Shown here in pieces: positions 2,423 through 34,400 of a stretch of 36,108 nt of DNA. Both the position numbers and the translations under genes were made by a program. Each line of letters opens with the position of its first letter. Position 1 is the stretch's first letter. The notes beneath the pieces were generated by a model. It ran no database searches. It was not told where the DNA came from and saw nothing but the letters and a program-made list of their open reading frames with translations. The DNA lies in assembly GCA_910575605.1 (NCBI GenBank), contig CAJTEW010000023.1, positions 1-36,108 on the forward strand, given 5' to 3'. The stretch comes from Lachnospiraceae bacterium. GTDB taxonomy: Bacteria > Bacillota > Clostridia > Lachnospirales > Lachnospiraceae.

Positions 2423-5193
2423 ACCATGAACACCGTCCTCAAATCATAATTCTTTTCTCTAGTGTAATGATACAGCATAAATCCAAAAATAGCAATTACA
2501 TCAAGAACCGCTGCCATCAAGTAAATTCCCCACGGGAAGTCCGCCTGAACATATCCAAATCGATTAATCAGGCACTTTTTTACTCCCAAAATAAGAGGAG
2601 TCCCTATAAAAACTGTCCAGATACAGCTCCTGGCTAGAATATATCCTGCCTCATATAACAGCATTCTCCTAATCTGCCTCTGTGTCATTCCCACTGATAC
2701 AAGCATAGCAAAATACACCTTTTGCTCCACAATCCATCCATGAATCGAGTTATACAAATTCAAAAGGCAGATAATAGATGTAAGCAAAATAAAACATATC
2801 AGCAAAATGAGTATAATACTGTTTATTGCCTTCGGAAGCGTCTCACTGGCTTTCACTTCCCCCAATATAAGACCTGAGTTCTCCTCCTCTGCAAGCATGC
2901 CAAGCTTACTTAACAGTCCCGTATCCTTTCCATTCATATGCAGATATAAAGTGTGCTCCAATCCGTAGGAGTCCTCCGGATTTCCGTGATTTCTCATAAT
3001 TTCTTCTATCTGGCTGCCCGTTTCCAGACTAATAATTACCCACAATGTCTCCGAATGAAAGGAAAAATAACCTTCAAGCTGTTCATTATCTGCGTAACCT
3101 GCAATACATAAGGGAAACTCTACCTGGCGGTCCTCATCTGGCGAATATACCGTCAGCGGAATACTCTCGCCTTTTTTTAAGTCTGTCATCTGCCCAATCT
3201 CATAAAACTCATATTTTTCTGCCTCCATGCCATATACTCTCCAGTTTTCTGTCGAAACCTCGCCGCTTTGTACAACAATTGCCGGAGGGATGTCTGTATC
3301 CTTAAGAAGCTCTATATCTGTATCCGACGCCTCTGCAATCTCCTCAAATATTTCTTCATCAACTGCAATAAAGTTCATAACTGCCGTACCTTCACCGGAC
3401 ATTTCCCTAAACTCTTCCTCCGAAAGCTCTCTGTGATAATACAGATTATATACCCTGTGAAGGGCCTTCTGGTATTCTCTGCTTAACACCTTTTTCGGAA
3501 TATTACCGATAAACATTCCTGTATATTCCTCACACACTTTCTTAACACCTGTGTCGGACATAATTTCTTTTTTCATCTCTCTGTATTTTTCAAGATTCCC
3601 CCCATATTCCGTCACAAAATAATCCCAGCCGTCATGTTCTATATTAATGGTATTTGTGTCCACCATCCGGTAATAAATAAGCTTTGTCACAAGCTGGCCT
3701 GAGGACAGCACAACAGTCAGTATTATCATAAAAAGCGCCGCTGCCCGGACCATTCCTCTTGTTTTTCTTCTCTGATATTTCAGAGAATTATCTGCTAGCA
3801 TTTTCTCTGCACTTGTATTAAGGTAATTCTTTTTCCTCCGTCTTAAGGCTTCTCCTCCTTTTTCCAGATTCCCCCGGATACATTCAACAGGACCTATTCT
3901 GCTTATTTTCACTGCCGGCAGCAGCGCAGACAAAAATACTGTCAGCCCGCTTCCTATAGTAATAAACAGAAGTATTTTCCACGAAATCACAAGATGTACC
4001 GGAAGTCTTTCTGGAAGAACTGCCCAGACTGACGTAAGGGAATAGATAAAGGGCAGAAGTAGATGCATCCCCAAAAAAATCATCAGTAAGCCGGCCAGAA
4101 TTCCAAGGGGCAGCGCCGGAAGGAAGAGTGAAAAGGCTTCAAAATAAACGCTGCTCCTCTTCTGCCTTCCTGTTGCTCCTACAGAGCACAGCATCCCCAG
4201 ATACCGGCTTCTTTCTTCAAAAGAAATATTAAACACATTATAAATCAAAATTATTGCTGCAGTTACAATAACTGCCAGAAAAAACACTGTCATAACCTGC
4301 GTAATAAAATTTACAACAGAGTCCGAAGAATCCCCTGAAAAAGAAAGGACATAATTATTAAGCTCTACTTCTCTATCCCCGGCTATTTTCCTGAAATCCT
4401 CATACAGATCACCCTTTACAGACTTTAAATCCATAATTCCCATAACATTTACTGATCCATCCCATTTCTCATCATAGCATGTAAATGCCATATATCCTGC
4501 TGCTCCTTCCTGCTCAAAAACAGGGCTCTCTATAATTCCTGCTACTGTAAGCTCTTCCCTTTTTCCCGTATAGCTTTTATCCACACGAAAGCTGTTATTT
4601 TCTTCATAAAAGGGAAACTCCTGAGAGACCTTTTTTGTCTCTCCATATTCCAGCTTCAAACTAGAAAAAGGAAAGATACTAGTGACCCCTTCCTGAATTC
4701 CTGTAACTGTCCTCTCAAAATATTCCGCCTCAAAAGTATCTCCAACCGAAACCTTAGCGCCCTCTTCTATTGCTTTCTGACTAATAACAATTTCACCCTT
4801 TTTTTCAGGCAGCCTTCCCTCTTTAAGAGTGATATTCATCCAGTCAAAGAGAGGAGCTTCATAGGATTTCACAAACAGATAGGGTCTCTCTGGATTCTCT
4901 GATGCAGAAAATCTGGTAAATCCATAATCTACCGACCTTCCTGTCTCCTTTACATACCCAAGTTCCTCTATCTTCTTAAGCTCATTCTCTGTCATGTTAT
5001 ACATACTGACATGCCATTTGCCCTTAACCTGTGAACCTACATTCTGAAGATAGTTTACTGCCGTCTCCCTCCCTGAAAATACACAGGTCAATAAAAGTAC
5101 CATTAAAAAAATTCCAAGAAATGTGATACAGGTTCTTCTTTTATTCATCTTCATATGTTTCCAAGTCACTTTATATACAACCGCATTTCTCAT
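2419..5193 (-). CDS. ABC transporter permease with two FtsX domains
   Basis: The 924-residue membrane protein has an N-terminal membrane segment at about 23-41, a large extracytoplasmic region to about 295, and a cluster of three membrane helices between about 299 and 435. A second N-terminal-type helix at about 485-503 is followed by a second extracytoplasmic region and three C-terminal helices (about 785-905). This is a tandem FtsX/MacB_PCD layout, as in permeases that pair with LolD/MacB-like ATPases. They move peptides or lipids or transmit force rather than import solutes. Start and stop both overlap the neighbours by four bases. With its ATPase and the two-component pair it forms a likely peptide-antibiotic detoxification or envelope-stress module. 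The two large ectodomains differ from classic BceB, which has one. Confidence 0.9.
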   Translation of the reverse strand: MRNAVVYKVTWKHMKMNKRRTCITFLGIFLMVLLLTCVFSGRETAVNYLQNVGSQVKGKWHVSMYNMTENELKKIEELGYVKETGRSVDYGFTRFSASENPERPYLFVKSYEAPLFDWMNITLKEGRLPEKKGEIVISQKAIEEGAKVSVGDTFEAEYFERTVTGIQEGVTSIFPFSSLKLEYGETKKVSQEFPFYEENNSFRVDKSYTGKREELTVAGIIESPVFEQEGAAGYMAFTCYDEKWDGSVNVMGIMDLKSVKGDLYEDFRKIAGDREVELNNYVLSFSGDSSDSVVNFITQVMTVFFLAVIVTAAIILIYNVFNISFEERSRYLGMLCSVGATGRQKRSSVYFEAFSLFLPALPLGILAGLLMIFLGMHLLLPFIYSLTSVWAVLPERLPVHLVISWKILLFITIGSGLTVFLSALLPAVKISRIGPVECIRGNLEKGGEALRRRKKNYLNTSAEKMLADNSLKYQRRKTRGMVRAAALFMIILTVVLSSGQLVTKLIYYRMVDTNTINIEHDGWDYFVTEYGGNLEKYREMKKEIMSDTGVKKVCEEYTGMFIGNIPKKVLSREYQKALHRVYNLYYHRELSEEEFREMSGEGTAVMNFIAVDEEIFEEIAEASDTDIELLKDTDIPPAIVVQSGEVSTENWRVYGMEAEKYEFYEIGQMTDLKKGESIPLTVYSPDEDRQVEFPLCIAGYADNEQLEGYFSFHSETLWVIISLETGSQIEEIMRNHGNPEDSYGLEHTLYLHMNGKDTGLLSKLGMLAEEENSGLILGEVKASETLPKAINSIILILLICFILLTSIICLLNLYNSIHGWIVEQKVYFAMLVSVGMTQRQIRRMLLYEAGYILARSCIWTVFIGTPLILGVKKCLINRFGYVQADFPWGIYLMAAVLDVIAIFGFMLYHYTREKNYDLRTVFMV

Positions 5194-28395: not shown

Positions 28396-28884
28396 ATGAC
28401 AAAAACAAATATGAAGATAAAAAACCACATTTCCTTAGAGGATAAGATTCATGCCATAAACATCATGGCCCATTCTTATTTCCAGGAAAATGAATCCGGC
28501 GAAACTGAATATGTCCCCTACTTAAAAGAAGTGGGAAAGGTTATTGCTGCGGTAAAATATTTTATTGAGGGTATTACATTTGATGAGGACGAAAGCATCT
28601 ACGATTCCGCGGTAAACGACACTGATGTAAAGCTCATGGTAAACAAGGTCTTATCTTCTCCGAAATTTACAGAGCTTCTGGATGACGTAAAGGATTTGGT
28701 AGAATATAAGAAAGTCAGAAGCCTTGCTAAGCTTCAGAACGAAGCCGCTGTCATACTGGCTTATAAGCTGGCTCTGCTTACTGACAGCGAAGCACAAAAA
28801 GCCAAAGCCGAAACAGAAGCCCTCACAACCTTAAATAACTGGATCAATGACCAGGGCGGATCCAATGAGGGGCAGGGTGAGTAA
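28396..28884 (+). CDS. Probable phage tail assembly chaperone
   Basis: The 162-residue, mostly helical, acidic protein (for example EVGKVIAAVKYFIEGITFDE and FTELLDDVKDLVEYKKVRSL) sits between the tail tube-like and tape-measure genes, where siphophages encode the tail assembly chaperone (gpG/gpGT position). No canonical slippery heptamer for a programmed frameshift is evident near the 3' end. Its TAA overlaps the tape-measure ATG by one base (TAATG), giving translational coupling. AAGGAGG precedes the start. The assignment is from position and composition only. Confidence 0.55.
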   Translation: MTKTNMKIKNHISLEDKIHAINIMAHSYFQENESGETEYVPYLKEVGKVIAAVKYFIEGITFDEDESIYDSAVNDTDVKLMVNKVLSSPKFTELLDDVKDLVEYKKVRSLAKLQNEAAVILAYKLALLTDSEAQKAKAETEALTTLNNWINDQGGSNEGQGE

Positions 28885-30242
28885 TGATGGCTGATTATAA
28901 TGTAAATGTCAAGGTAAACCCCTCTGATTTAAAACTTCTGGATGACATTGAAAAACGGTTGCAGGCTGTAGTAAAAACTCCTGTCAAGCTTAACTTTGAT
29001 GTCAAATATAAGGATCTGGATAATGTTTTAAAACAGCTTTCAAAGAGTACAGACAGCTATAAGATAAAGCCCGGCATAGATACAAGCGTCATAGAAGAAG
29101 CCGGAAAAAGACTCGGCCAGCTCAGTAGCAGCGCCATACAGAAAATCCCTGAATTAATGGGCCGCATGGCAAAAGAGACGCTGAACATCGATACTGCCAT
29201 AGCCAGCCTCTATAAGTCCACGGACGAGGCCGGTGCAAAATATACCCGGTTCCTGAATAACGCGGGCAGCTCCTCAAAATCTGTCGGCCGTGATATGTCA
29301 TCCTACATATCCCAGACTGACGAATGGGCCAGACGGGGATACTCCTTAGACCAGAGCGCAAAGCTTTCAAAATCAAGCTCTGTCTACGCAAACATCAGTG
29401 GGACTGACGATAAGACCGCCATAAACGATCTTGACGCAGTTATAAAGGCATATGCTCTTCAATACACAGACGCCCTGTCAATCGTGGACCGCTACAGTAA
29501 GCTGGGAAGCGAATTCTCCGTCTCCGCACAGGAATTAGGTGCAGGCATGTCCAATGCCGCTTCTGCCCTCGCCCTTGGAGGCACTGACTTAAATAAAGCC
29601 CTCGCAATGCTCACCGGCGGCGCGGAGATAACACAGTCTGCCAGTGACCTTGGGAACACCCTCAAAGCAGGACAGCTCCGTATCCAGGGAATGAAGGACA
29701 GCCTGGAAGCCCTCGGCGAAGAAACGGAAGGCATGGGTTCTGTAGGTGAAATCCAGGCCCGTATTAAGGAGCTTACAAAGGGGCAGGTAAATATCATGGA
29801 TTCCTCCGACCCTTCCAGGGTCAGGGATTACTATGACATCCTGCAGGATGTTTCCAGAGTATGGGACAGCCTGAAAAACACGCAGCAGACCGATTTGCTT
29901 GAAACTATGTTCGGAAAATCCGGCAGTAACCAGGGAGCTGCCCTGATAAAAGCCTTCCAGTCCGGACAGGTACAGAAGGCCTATGACGCTTCCATACATG
30001 CCGACGGTTCTGCCATGCAGGAACAGGAAAAGTGGATGGACAGCATGGACGCAAAGCTCCAGCAGTTCCACGGCCAGTTCCAGGAGCTGTCCACCACAGC
30101 CCTTGGCTCTGATTTCCTGAAGGGCGCCGTGGATGCAGGAACCGGATTTCTGGATATTCTGACCCGGATCGCAGATGTGGGAGGAACACTCCCTCTCATA
30201 TTAGGCGCCGTCGGAGGCGTAAAATTATTTAAGAACCTGGAT
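28884..30242 (+). CDS. Phage tail tape-measure protein, exon 1
   Basis: These 453 codons encode the N-terminal part. A helical start is followed by a PhageMin_Tail-like region (about 70-330) with AIASLYKSTDEAGAKYTRFL, FSVSAQELGAGMSNAASALA and LGGTDLNKALAMLTGGAEIT. A hydrophobic stretch, GGTLPLILGAVGGVKLF, lies near the end. Without splicing the frame would stop at 30257 after a few intron-encoded residues (LFYY). The predicted 5' splice site follows GAT at 30240-30242. Tape-measure proteins set tail length and are packed in the tube lumen. An ATG one codon later is an alternative start. Confidence 0.85.
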
Positions 30243-30755
30243 TTGTTTTATTATTAAGCTGGTCCAATCTATACGAAAGGATACGGCAGATATGGTGCCG
30301 TAAACAATCGTGTGGTGTTATGTTCTAAAACTGGAGGAGTAATTGCTGGGAAGCCTAATGCTCATTAAGCTACAACGTAACCTGAAAATGGTAAGCGTGA
30401 CACGCGGCGAAAGCAGAAAAAATTAATGAGATGGTATATGGTGAAACAAAAGGCATCAGGATGATGCCCCTAAGTACCTGGAAAAAGGGCAGAGGCTATA
30501 TATGGCAAAAGCTGTGTATATCCGGTTAACCAATCAGCAGTGCACCAATATGCCGTTACGGCATAGGGGTACATTCAGAGACTACCGATCCTCTGAGTAA
30601 ATACAGACCTTATTGTATTTGCTTATAATGTATAGTCCAAAATAAAAGAACAAAATGACAGTATCCTGTCCGGTGTGCTCCCAACCGTTGTTGGCAGGGG
30701 AGAAAGAAAAGATTCAAAACATCAATAAAATTTAAATATGCGTTTGTATTGAAAA

Positions 30756-30780
30756 TAAGGTATCCTCTAAAGATACCTTA
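30756..30780 (-). terminator. Probable terminator of the zinc-ribbon gene
   Basis: TAAGGTATC and GATACCTTA form a 9-bp stem with a 7-base loop. On the minus strand the stem is followed by a short T-rich tract (TTTTCAA). It lies about 120 bases beyond the zinc-ribbon stop codon, inside the intron. Confidence 0.5.
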
Positions 30781-30900
30781 ACATGTTTTTCACATCAGAT
30801 ACTACTTCTTCGGCTGAAGTATATGAAGTTCGAGCAGAAGGAGAATCAGATGGCTACACGTAATTAAAACTTTTTTTGAGAAGATCTAGCATAAATAAAT

Positions 30901-31281
30901 TTATCTCCCTGGCTTCCAAGTGTGTCCACAATTAGCACAGCGATTTACTGTTTTGTTACTTCCTAAAAATCCTGTTAGTAACGAATATCCACGTTGACCT
31001 GCAGTAATTGCGGTTGAGCCACATTTGGGACACTTAGGATCCGGTAATAATTCTTTATGGTTTTTTACATATTCTTCATTGAACATATAACCACAAACAG
31101 AACATACTTCTTTGATATTATCTTTAATAATATGTTTTTTTTGGACTCCGCACATAGGACATCTCGAATCAGACAAATCATTATCACCTAATGATGACTC
31201 CTCTATCGGATATCCACAATAAATACATTGTTTTGATTTGCTAGATATTTCTTTACCACATTCTGGACAAAGTATCAACAT
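30901..31281 (-). CDS. Zinc-ribbon protein encoded antisense inside the intron
   Basis: The 126-residue protein has four zinc-knuckle pairs: CPECGKEIS with CIYCGYP at the N-terminus, CPMCG with CSVCGYMF in the middle, and CPKCGSTAITAGQRGYSLL with CANCGHTWKPG at the C-terminus. Cysteine-rich ribbons of this kind occur in small Firmicutes and phage-borne proteins of unknown function that may bind nucleic acid or protein. The start at 31281 is preceded by AGGAAGG; a longer form from 31341 lacks a good ribosome site. It lies antisense to the tape-measure gene with its own promoter and terminator, so it can be expressed when the phage genes are silent. Confidence 0.75.
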   Translation of the reverse strand: MLILCPECGKEISSKSKQCIYCGYPIEESSLGDNDLSDSRCPMCGVQKKHIIKDNIKEVCSVCGYMFNEEYVKNHKELLPDPKCPKCGSTAITAGQRGYSLLTGFLGSNKTVNRCANCGHTWKPGR

Positions 31282-31312
31282 AATTATATACCTTCCTAAA
31301 TTATTTGTTTTA

Positions 31313-31341
31313 ATTATATCACACATAATTACTAACAACAA
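31313..31341 (-). promoter_or_regulatory. Promoter of the intron-borne zinc-ribbon gene
   Basis: On the minus strand TTGTTG (31336-31341) and a perfect TATAAT (31313-31318) are spaced by 17 bases. The start would fall about 25 bases before the zinc-ribbon start codon. Confidence 0.55.
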
Positions 31342-31367
31342 TATTTTTACATGATTTTACCATATCA

Positions 31368-31390
31368 CTTATTTTGAATTTCAAAATAAG
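31368..31390. repeat. 10-bp perfect palindrome near the intron 3' end
   Basis: CTTATTTTGA-ATT-TCAAAATAAG lies 23 bases before the predicted 3' splice site. It could be a peripheral P9-type stem that brings the 3' end to the core, or a boundary of the inserted cassette. Confidence 0.45.
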
Positions 31391-31413
31391 AAAATAAATT
31401 TATAGAGCCCTAG

Positions 31414-34400
31414 CAGCTAAAAGGATTCTATAATATACTTATAAATGTAGGTGAAAATGGTGGAAACCAACTTTTATTTCTGAAAAATAATATAAAAAAG
31501 GGGGTAGGTTCATTTCTCAAAAGTTTCAGTGGACAAGCTACACTAACAATAGCTTCTGCTGTAGGCATATATAAAGCAATTGATTACCTTCAAACCGGCT
31601 GGACAAGGGCCGGTGAAGCCGCCGAGAAAGCGACTTCCGAGTTTCAGGATGCAAATTCAGAACTGGAATCTCTGAAATCACAGAAAGCAGACCAAGAGAC
31701 AAGAGTCCAGGAAATTGCCGCCAAATACGATATCGATACTTCCGAACTGCAGGACGCAGACGGTAAGTTAAAAAGCGTAGACGAGATGATTGCCGCTATT
31801 AATTCCCACGGCGGCATATCACTTGTAGACCAGGCTGAACTTGACGGCTTATCTTCCGCAGGCTCAAAGCTCGAAGCCCAGTTAGCCATTCAGGAGCAGA
31901 TAACAGAAGCGAAGAAGCAGGCAATGATTCACTCTGCCGAAAAAGCCGCTGGTACCGAAAAAACCTACTATGAACAGATGAAGGAAGAGCACGGCGGTTT
32001 TAAAGGGTTTTTCAAATGGCTCCAGGGGCAGAGCCATTTTGAAGTTGACGAGTACGGCAATCAGGTCTACAAGGCGCAGTCTGATGCTGACAAATTTTAC
32101 GGTGAAAGCGGGGACACTACGGATCTCGGGTTATTAAAGACAAGGACTTCGGAACTAAAGGAATACAAGGCAGAACTGAAAAGCCTTGATGAGGAAATTG
32201 CCAATAGCAAGAAAAATGGAGAAGAAGTCTCACAAAGCACCCTTGACAGGCACAAGGAACTCTCTGCCTCTATAGACGACGTATCTGTCCGCCTCGCAGA
32301 TTCGGCCGCAGCGGTATCTTCTGACATGGAGATCCTGTCCCAAAGTGACAGTGATTTCGCAGTTTCATACATGAAAGACGCCGAAGACGCGCTCCATGAC
32401 TTCAATACAATGGATCTCTCCCCAAAACAGAAAGCCCTAAAGGATCTAGATTTTTATTTCAGCGGAGATAAAAATACCTTTATAAAAGATCAGTTACTGG
32501 ACGCGGCAAAAAGCGGGGAAAGCCTTGAGGGTGTTTTAGGGCGTCTTGGGCTGAAGTTATCCGATTTAGGCGAAGGAGTCTCATCCGATACACTAAGGCA
32601 GTATTTCCAGGATATTGCAAAGTCTGCAAAAGACGCAGAAAAGGCTGTCAGCAAAACAAATAATAACCTGACTATGGACGATATCGGGGCCGCCTTTCAG
32701 TCAAAAAATGCCGGTGATGATTATGTTTCTTTTTATGGTTATATGAAAAAGGCAAAGGAATTATTTGACCAGGGACTAACCGGGACAGATGACTTTAAAG
32801 TTTTCGCAGAGGCCCTAAGCTATGGCATTGATTCTTCTGCTGCATCTTTTGCGGAAAATTATGAGAATGCACAGAAATTTTTCATTGAAGATGAAAAAGG
32901 AAACCTGACCGTCGAAGGCGTTGATAACTTTGTCAATGCCCTGGCGGGCCTTGACAAAGGCTATGCCTCATGGAATGAAGAGGCCGGCAAATGGGACATC
33001 AACATAGAAAATACCGCCAAGGCAGCCCAGGAGCTTGAAGTCAGCGTACAGCTTATGGAAGCCCTCCTGGGCAGGATTAAGGATTACGATAATGTGGGAA
33101 ATTTCGATTTCCATTCCGCTGTCGAAGACTTTAACACGGCCAGATCCTCTCTGGAAGGCCTGCGCTCCATATATGACGAAATGTCAGACGATTCTCCAAA
33201 AAAGAAGCTCTTAGGCGCTAAGCTTGAAGGCTGGGAAGCCCAGCTTGGCACATGGGAAGAAAACCTGGCAGAGCTTGACACCGACATTGTCATGAACATC
33301 AGGCTGGAGTACGATCTGGCGGCAATCCAGGCGCAGATTGATGAAGCACAGGCATTAATAGATTTTGGTCAAAACACCGTCGGAAATAACGCAGAGGTAC
33401 TGGCCGGTAATGAAAAATATATTGATACTGCCAGGGAAGGAACCGGACTAAATATAGAAGGCATAACAGCCCCTCCTGAATTTAGTGCCAACGAAGAAAT
33501 CATAGAACTCTTAAAAACCCAGTTAGGAAATGCTTCCTCCGAGGAAGAAACCCTCGAAATCCAGGGAGTAATTGAAGGCCTGCAGGAGCTTCAAAAACAG
33601 CTGCTTGACGAGTTTTCATTCGAGCATCCCGAAATAAATGCTGACAGCACAGAAGACGAAGCCAGTGCGGCATGGGAATCCTTTCTTTCCTCTGCCGGAA
33701 ATCAGGAAAAGCTTGCCGATATAGCTGTAAACGATGAGGAAGCAATTGAAAAGGTTGCTGATATATTAGGAGTCGAACCAGAAGATATAGTGGTTGATAT
33801 AAAAGCCAATGATGAGGCAAGCGGTACGATAGACCTCATTCAGGGAATCGAGGTTATGGACAAGGTTGTTACACTGGTTGGCGAGGATGAAGCATCTTAT
33901 GTGATGACCATATGGAATGCCCTGTCTGCCGATCCTAAATTTGCCATGCTGTCAGCCCAGGATCAGGCCACCTATGTCATCCAGCAGTGGAATTCCCTGA
34001 CACCAGAACAAAAAGAGGCGTATATGAAGGGCGAAATCAGTATCGTAGATGATGCCACCGGCATAGTTGCTAATGTGAATCATTCGATTAATTCGATACC
34101 TTTAAATCCACATGCAAAAATCACTGCTTCCAATTTAACAGCAGGGCCGGCTGCGGCTGCAGCATTTACATTAAATACGTTAGATGGTAAAACCGCCCAT
34201 ACCTATATCATTACACACAGAAGTGAAACAGGAGGCAGCAGCTTAAATGGTTCTGCACAGAAAGACGGAACCTTAGGGGGCTTATCCCCCATTCCGAAGC
34301 TGTCAGCCCGGGCACTGGCCATGGGAACACTTCAGGATGATTCCTGGCTTAATCCCCGGTGGAAAACAAAAAAAGGCGAGGTAGCTTTAACTGGCGAAGT

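Follow-up and report, generated by a model that had tools for sequence, protein, structure and literature searches.

The window analyzed here is the whole of a 36,108-nucleotide stretch from a Lachnospiraceae bacterium (contig CAJTEW010000023.1 of assembly GCA_910575605.1), in which the coding sequence of a prophage tape-measure protein (TMP) is divided between two separate open frames. The locus raises the question of whether this gene is broken or is interrupted by an intron, and if the latter, what the intron carries.

Predicted splice sites and ribozyme core of the TMP intron

The original prediction placed a group I intron in the TMP gene at 30243 to 31413, and its class, host gene, and both splice sites are supported. 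The proposed guide pairings, GTCCA with TGGAT and AGCTG with CAGCT, were read directly from the bases, and P10 was retained over 14 introns. P1 (UGGAU/GUCCA) conforms to the group I rule that the 5′ splice site follows a U paired to G, and the 3′ end, CCCTAG followed by CAGCT, conforms to the rule of a terminal G and a P10 that aligns exon 2; the exon 2 start at 31414 is immediately preceded by this G. In the exon 1 frame, four intron codons are followed by a stop, and the codon directly before 31414 in the exon 2 frame is also a stop. The claim that splicing would join the two frames in phase also stands, exon 1 comprising 453 codons exactly with stops in the intron on both sides. As a check on chance, 12 P1-type guides were found in 29500 to 30400, three of which had a G-preceded 5-mer matching the P10 half in 30701 to 33000; by arithmetic, the two alternative guide/exon 2 pairs (29995/32801 and 30225/31675) give out-of-phase joins. 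The TMP gene intron is confirmed as an observation, and its removal from the transcript is predicted from these features. Coordinates are collected in Table 1.

Table 1. Positions in the window of the interrupted TMP gene, its intron, and features within the intron
Feature	Coordinates	Strand	Evidence or remark
TMP exon 1, 453 codons, ending ...KLFKNLD	28884..30242	+	PF10145 E 3.9e-15; TIGR01760 E 2.6e-16; phrog_4211 tape measure 3.4e-55
P1 exon strand TGGAT	30238..30242	+	U.G at 5′ splice site
Group I intron, 1171 nt	30243..31413	+	Preceded by U (GAT), G-terminated (CCCTAG)
Internal guide	30257..30266	+	P10 half AGCTG 30257-30261; P1 half GTCCA 30262-30266
P3 5′ strand GGAGGA, partner TCCTCT 30589-30594	30333..30338	+	Hand-drawn
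P4 5′ strand TGCTG, partner CAGCA 30535-30539	30344..30348	+	Hand-drawn
Core segment matched by covariance model R1	30354..30488	+	101 bits with E 5.2e-21, over positions 25-136 of the 229 in the model
P7 5′ strand GACTA, partner TAGTC 30633-30637	30580..30584	+	Hand-drawn
P8, between the P7 strands	30599-30605/30614-30620	+	Hand-drawn
Terminator-like hairpin, between antisense gene and ribozyme core	30756..30780	-	Consensus scan
Antisense zinc-ribbon gene, 126 aa, ATG at 31281	30901..31281	-	PF13240 2.3e-10; PF12773 1.8e-8; family alignment
Ribosome-binding-site-like GGAAGG of antisense gene	31291..31296	-	
Extended -10 promoter-like motif TGATATAAT of antisense gene	31313..31321	-	
TMP exon 2, 2108 codons	31414..36108 in window; frame ends at contig position 37740	+	About the first 55 codons variable, conserved from about DYLQTGW

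The original prediction also proposed comparison with intron-free homologs. In the intron-free TMP of genome G023, an 804-codon frame, the homologies to exon 1 and exon 2 lie 105 nt apart in one frame. This TMP aligns across the predicted spliced product of locus L066 (score, 247) with the junction residues in a 6-residue gap, so that the spacing rather than the exact joint is tested, and the window aligns weakly to it at the same place. The residues LD-QL, put forward as the expected intron-free junction, proved not to be diagnostic because exon 2 opens with a hypervariable stretch.

The P4 and P7 pairings described earlier could be drawn by hand, as could P3 and P8, with covariation judged by eye; inspection of introns from outside this group suggests different P3 pairs, such as CACTT/AAGTG and ACCT/AGGT. 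A match to the Rfam group I model RF00028 had been expected at about 30250 to 30700, and none was obtained in the window intron up to an E value of 10. This miss is not decisive because the same model misses the annotated intron of Staphylococcus phage 812 and that of T4 td, and RF00028 was dropped as a deciding test. The cut-off is 50 bits; T4 nrdB reached only 35.7 bits, and Klebsiella phage Miami and Brochothrix phage A9 were also below the cut-off. No match at an E value of 0.1 or better was found in ten other TMP-intron loci, or at 1 in seven more interrupted-TMP loci. RF00028 is thus shown to miss a class of phage introns.

A covariance model, R1, was built from nine outside introns only. 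The set includes L026 and L027, and only two of the nine (L031 and L032) exceed the RF00028 cut-off; among the others scanned, L028 falls below it (E value, 7.5e-8), and L007, L030, and L033 were missed. Over 31 sources, R1 matched all 16 searched introns of the recurrent site described below, and it found the phage 812 intron, absent from its training set, with 98 bits. In the window, the alignment covers model positions 25 to 136 of 229 only, and the P3/P7 half was assigned by hand pairing and a shared motif. Among other interrupted TMPs, R1 matched L079, L145, L146, and L149; no match was found in L075, L078, L083, or L147, and L077 reached only an E value of 0.32. Nothing was matched in three intron-free TMP loci (L082, L084, and L085). 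Compared in this way, the core is homologous to those of established group I introns, and the 5′ part of the intron matched 171 of 50,697 phage records.

Elsewhere in the host genome, another group I intron was observed (G000:C2:386180-386509), scoring above the cut-off with RF00028 (63.3 bits) and 147.8 bits with R1. In Klebsiella phage Miami (L028, 233685-237386), the stretch starts with the annotated nuclear shell gene, and two genes farther on lies a core without intron annotation (RF00028, 42.9 bits, below cut-off).

A recurrent intron site in TMP genes

The host genome holds two further copies of the intron, whose 5′ parts match that of the window intron at 96% identity over 518 and 498 nt, and another copy, also 96% identical, is present in one genome of the same genus. 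A search with TMP exon 1 in 295 relatives gave a match in 14. The P7 motif, GACTACCNATCCTCNGAGTA, was used to probe viral and genome contigs and identified 2 and 11 stretches, respectively; one of these 13 (L072, from a Bacteroidales metagenome-assembled genome) was dropped as a chance match, there being nothing TMP-like upstream. In all, 16 introns lie after the same KN(L/F)(D/A) codons (the KN site), 13 of them in TMP genes as judged by similarity to exon 1 of the window; by that comparison, exon 1 was unrecognized in L068, L069, and L070. TMPs of other lineages are interrupted at the matching KNVG/KNIG position or after KLF. The TMP site is a recurrent intron site common to several related phages. 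Introns of this type had been called known but uncommon in phage tail genes; the former holds, and the latter understated a position that is a repeated intron site, occupied three times in this one genome.

Both ends were in view for 14 of the 16 KN-site introns; these come from 11 genomes or viral records, a number of which are close relatives. L070 and L074 were excluded because their contigs end before exon 2. Across these 14, 70 of 84 P10 positions were Watson-Crick pairs, compared with a shuffle mean of 56.8 and a maximum of 69 in 50,000 (p 2e-5; first 11 introns alone, p 0.0016), in a test that was partly non-blind since the search for exon 2 starts had used patterns of the sequence expected there. 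The 14 introns differ in their guides and in how exon 2 begins, and the pairing is kept, the weakest P10 being that of L093 (2 of 6 Watson-Crick). P1, counted with G-U pairs in 11 introns, had 5/5 pairs in nine and 4/5 in two. By peptide back-translation in IMG/VR, exon 1 gave 13 pattern matches and no relative, and exon 2 gave one weak, unhelpful relative; exon 2 of L066 had no match in phage records.

In one gene of genome G178 (L143/L076), TMP exon 1 is itself interrupted by an additional group I intron, at about 461 to 859 (R1, 90.5 bits at L076:467-791), and a truncated exon 2-like frame precedes its full exon 2.

The antisense zinc-ribbon gene and the variable start of exon 2

The downstream half of the window intron holds an antisense gene absent from the earlier description. 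It is the sole frame of at least 60 aa wholly inside the intron, and Pfam assigned it to zinc-ribbon-type families; no homing endonuclease was recognized in the intron, nor were tnpA, tnpB, or a transposase recognized in this frame. A consensus scan of 30600 to 31500 identified three terminator-like sites (shuffle mean, 0.2), and a promoter scan requiring a -35 reported nothing for the antisense gene. In each of the 14 KN-site introns whose 3′ end could be read, the gene closest to exon 2 was a zinc-ribbon gene; these loci were found by intron or TMP searches and not via this gene. The L081 copy is apparently frameshifted, and L095 has two zinc-ribbon genes in tandem. Relatives share a C-terminal CPxC...CxxC ribbon and differ in the middle, one of them carrying a ribosomal L7/L12-like domain (E value, 8.5e-11).

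Ribosome-binding-site motifs were found upstream of 14 of 16 zinc-ribbon genes with a first pattern that missed L073 and L151, and of 16 of 16 (shuffle mean, 1.8) after the pattern was widened, which makes the latter count partly post hoc. The extended -10 motif was present in 15 of 16 upstream regions (shuffle mean, 2.3, with shuffles of two-letter blocks), in a test designed after examples had been seen and in which a poor -10 was counted for L067; none was found in L069. L151 has two zinc-ribbon genes in tandem, and these signals were scored for the first one rather than for the one adjacent to exon 2.

The zinc-ribbon gene keeps its position where the intron spans several kilobases and carries additional cargo, including HD-domain, DUF3800, and retropepsin-like genes. 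Retropepsin-like aspartyl protease cargo was seen in L064/L093, L075, and L076 (by Pfam for L064 and L075; by eye for L076). In L093 and L095, an antisense frame resembling MazF/PemK toxins by eye lies beside the zinc-ribbon gene. L083, another interrupted TMP with its 3′ end out of view, has a GmrSD-like gene, and the TMP-interruption cargo of L079 includes a skipping-rope RNA (RF02924, 74.7 bits; 2499-2581, minus strand). PADLOC, run on ten proteins, identified an NsnA-like protein in L083 (E value, 6e-32) and a dGTPase-like protein in L062 (E value, 3e-7); of four zinc-ribbon proteins, one had a weak match (L068; PDC-S64; E value, 8e-4) and three had none. No nuclease family was recognized in the zinc-ribbon protein of the window, its predicted structure was uninformative (pLDDT, 57.5), a search of solved structures gave nothing usable (best E value, 0.097), and tblastn found no homolog in phage records.

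The start of exon 2 is hypervariable, and in relatives readable that far the zinc-ribbon gene lies just before it. Upstream, the host prophages C45 and C23 share 94.8% identity over 2083 nt, a similarity that ends roughly 540 nt inside the intron. Downstream of this switch, C45 shares 94.5% identity over 3490 nt with C4, and C23 and C45 share 77.8% over 854 nt. Farther downstream, C23 and C4 are 96.7% identical over 1442 nt, and the three prophages are mosaic elsewhere too. On the simplest reading of these alignments, C45 would be a recombinant inside the intron, with cargo and TMP segment swapped together.

Proposed explanation, alternatives, and the wider zinc-ribbon family

These observations are best explained, with high confidence, by a spliced intron that recurs in TMP genes and has a cargo bay, a constant antisense zinc-ribbon gene, and a capacity for block swapping. 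This explanation builds on the core homology, the splice-site pairing, the repeated site, the antisense gene with its signals, and the block structure, all evident in the sequences compared. Once the late operon is transcribed, the intron would fold and be cut after U30242, and codon 453 would be joined to the CAG at 31414 to give a single TMP of ~2561 aa. The 3′ half of the intron, outside the core, would serve as the cargo bay, with the small opposite-strand zinc-ribbon gene as its constant occupant at this site. Given its own promoter-like, ribosome-binding, and terminator-like signals, that gene could be expressed in a lysogen with the TMP untouched, to the possible benefit of lysogen or phage. 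Since the core is conserved and the cargo and the beginning of exon 2 are both variable, recombination within the core or next to it could swap a block comprising cargo, zinc-ribbon gene, and variable TMP segment between prophages. The intron would act as a shelter, a late phage gene carrying separately expressed cargo with its function kept, at a position used by several phages of gut bacteria. If right, this would explain the TMP genes that seem broken in these genomes, point to where accessory and defense genes borne by phages might be sought, and make it possible to test directly if small prophage proteins and TMP variants recognize each other as pairs.

Several known systems resemble parts of this arrangement. 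Introns of Staphylococcus phages (in the phage 812 recombinase gene, and unannotated in Silviavirus near the tail sheath gene) have a homologous core, 73 to 87% identical over 45 to 112 nt among the matches listed; the host genes differ, and the phage 812 intron has its endonuclease gene on the coding strand, unlike the window. According to the available text of PMC3706429, cluster J mycobacteriophages have introns in capsid and tail genes, structural genes as here, and their splicing was seen by reverse transcription-PCR; one of them has a bottom-strand frame that putatively encodes a homing endonuclease, the interrupted tail gene is for a minor tail protein rather than a TMP, and a recurring accessory gene is not described in that text. 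Such precedents, and the diversity of the remaining cargo, would suit a plain selfish intron that persists only because splicing hides it, with antisense genes as chance passengers in neutral space. This is a possibility of distinctly lower probability, since random passengers would not be expected to give a single gene family with constant orientation and position in 14 of 14 KN-site introns, its ribosome-binding and promoter-like motifs are kept, and the window intron has no recognized homing endonuclease. Related ribozyme cores also occur beside tnpA/tnpB on plasmids of Enterococcus faecium and Paenibacillus larvae, and these match RF00028 (61 and 67 bits, respectively), which would accord with a decayed IStron (an intron combined with an IS element) whose transposase genes have been replaced. 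That origin is improbable: no transposase or TnpB was recognized in the window intron, the 3′ ends seen were TAG, CCG, ATG, or TTG rather than the TCAG of group A IStrons (PMC4227781, available text), and 14 introns lie after the same KN(L/F)(D/A) codons in a fixed TMP site, not at scattered TTGAT-type targets. Least probable of all, and very unlikely, is a broken gene in a defective prophage with an unspliced insertion; the genome assembly is a 92-contig draft, yet different genomes retain the pairing, the phase, and an open exon 2, and three prophages in one genome keep them.

The small prophage proteins gp15 of HK97 and Ltp of TP-J34 act on TMP-guided DNA entry. With them and a bacterial analog, SNIPE, the zinc-ribbon gene could share the TMP as a partner, a likeness by analogy only. 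SNIPE, a membrane nuclease, reportedly blocks entry and associates with the TMP of lambda (PMC13190303, available text), and the zinc-ribbon gene might be a factor for superinfection exclusion or immunity that is matched to the adjacent variable TMP segment, in the manner of polymorphic effector-immunity pairs. We consider this unlikely, albeit less so than the IStron origin. Consistent with it are the fixed adjacency, divergent orientation, and promoter-like motifs of the gene, a tandem array of zinc-ribbon genes (L148, 11 profile matches) beside genes that look tail-like by eye, and a correlation of zinc-ribbon similarity with that of exon 2 (Mantel r 0.28, p 2e-4, n 24) that is confounded by phage relatedness. 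Against it, C23 and G003a share exon 2 similarity of 0.59 (mostly after the variable segment) with unlike zinc-ribbon proteins (0.08), and the window protein has neither a recognized nuclease family nor an informative structure model. An extension in which phages use the TMP introns as a site dedicated to exchange, the spliced intron protects an antisense gene for lysogeny, the zinc-ribbon gene and variable segment move as one unit, and the zinc-ribbon protein is a self-exclusion factor reading the adjacent TMP variant is similarly doubtful; if true, tandem zinc-ribbon arrays would be collections of immunities against other TMP types.

The intron adds a new member to the group I introns. No description of a TMP intron site with a recurring antisense zinc-ribbon gene was found in the available text of the open-access literature, including PMC3706429, PMC3984707, PMC4227781, PMC13190303, PMC11318856, PMC6145125, and PMC3888941; in the accessible part of the review PMC3984707, the terms "tape measure," "antisense," and "cargo" do not occur.

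The zinc-ribbon family was found in 24 of the 295 relatives, with 45 matches listed, and in the genome of the window at the three TMP introns and in one weak match (E value, 7e-4). Twenty further stretches were examined, leaving out seven listed matches (two in G006 and one each in G052, G065, G199, G261, and G090). In 10 of the 20, a divergent TMP-like or long open frame starts within about 230 nt of the zinc-ribbon start; this frame has PHROG tape-measure support in L132, L136, L145, and L146 and lacks it in L131, L135, L138, L147, and L149, and the tenth, L143, was recognized by its upstream TMP exon. No TMP was seen in nine stretches (L133, L134, L137, L139 to L142, L144, and L150), among which the divergent frame of L142 matches PHROGs without an assigned function. 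TMP interruptions are thus a frequent location of the family, though not its only one. The array in L148 (G090:C1:2192000-2208500) gave 11 profile matches or, counted another way, 12 CxxC-rich frames, and it adjoins frames resembling tail genes by eye and a TMP N terminus.
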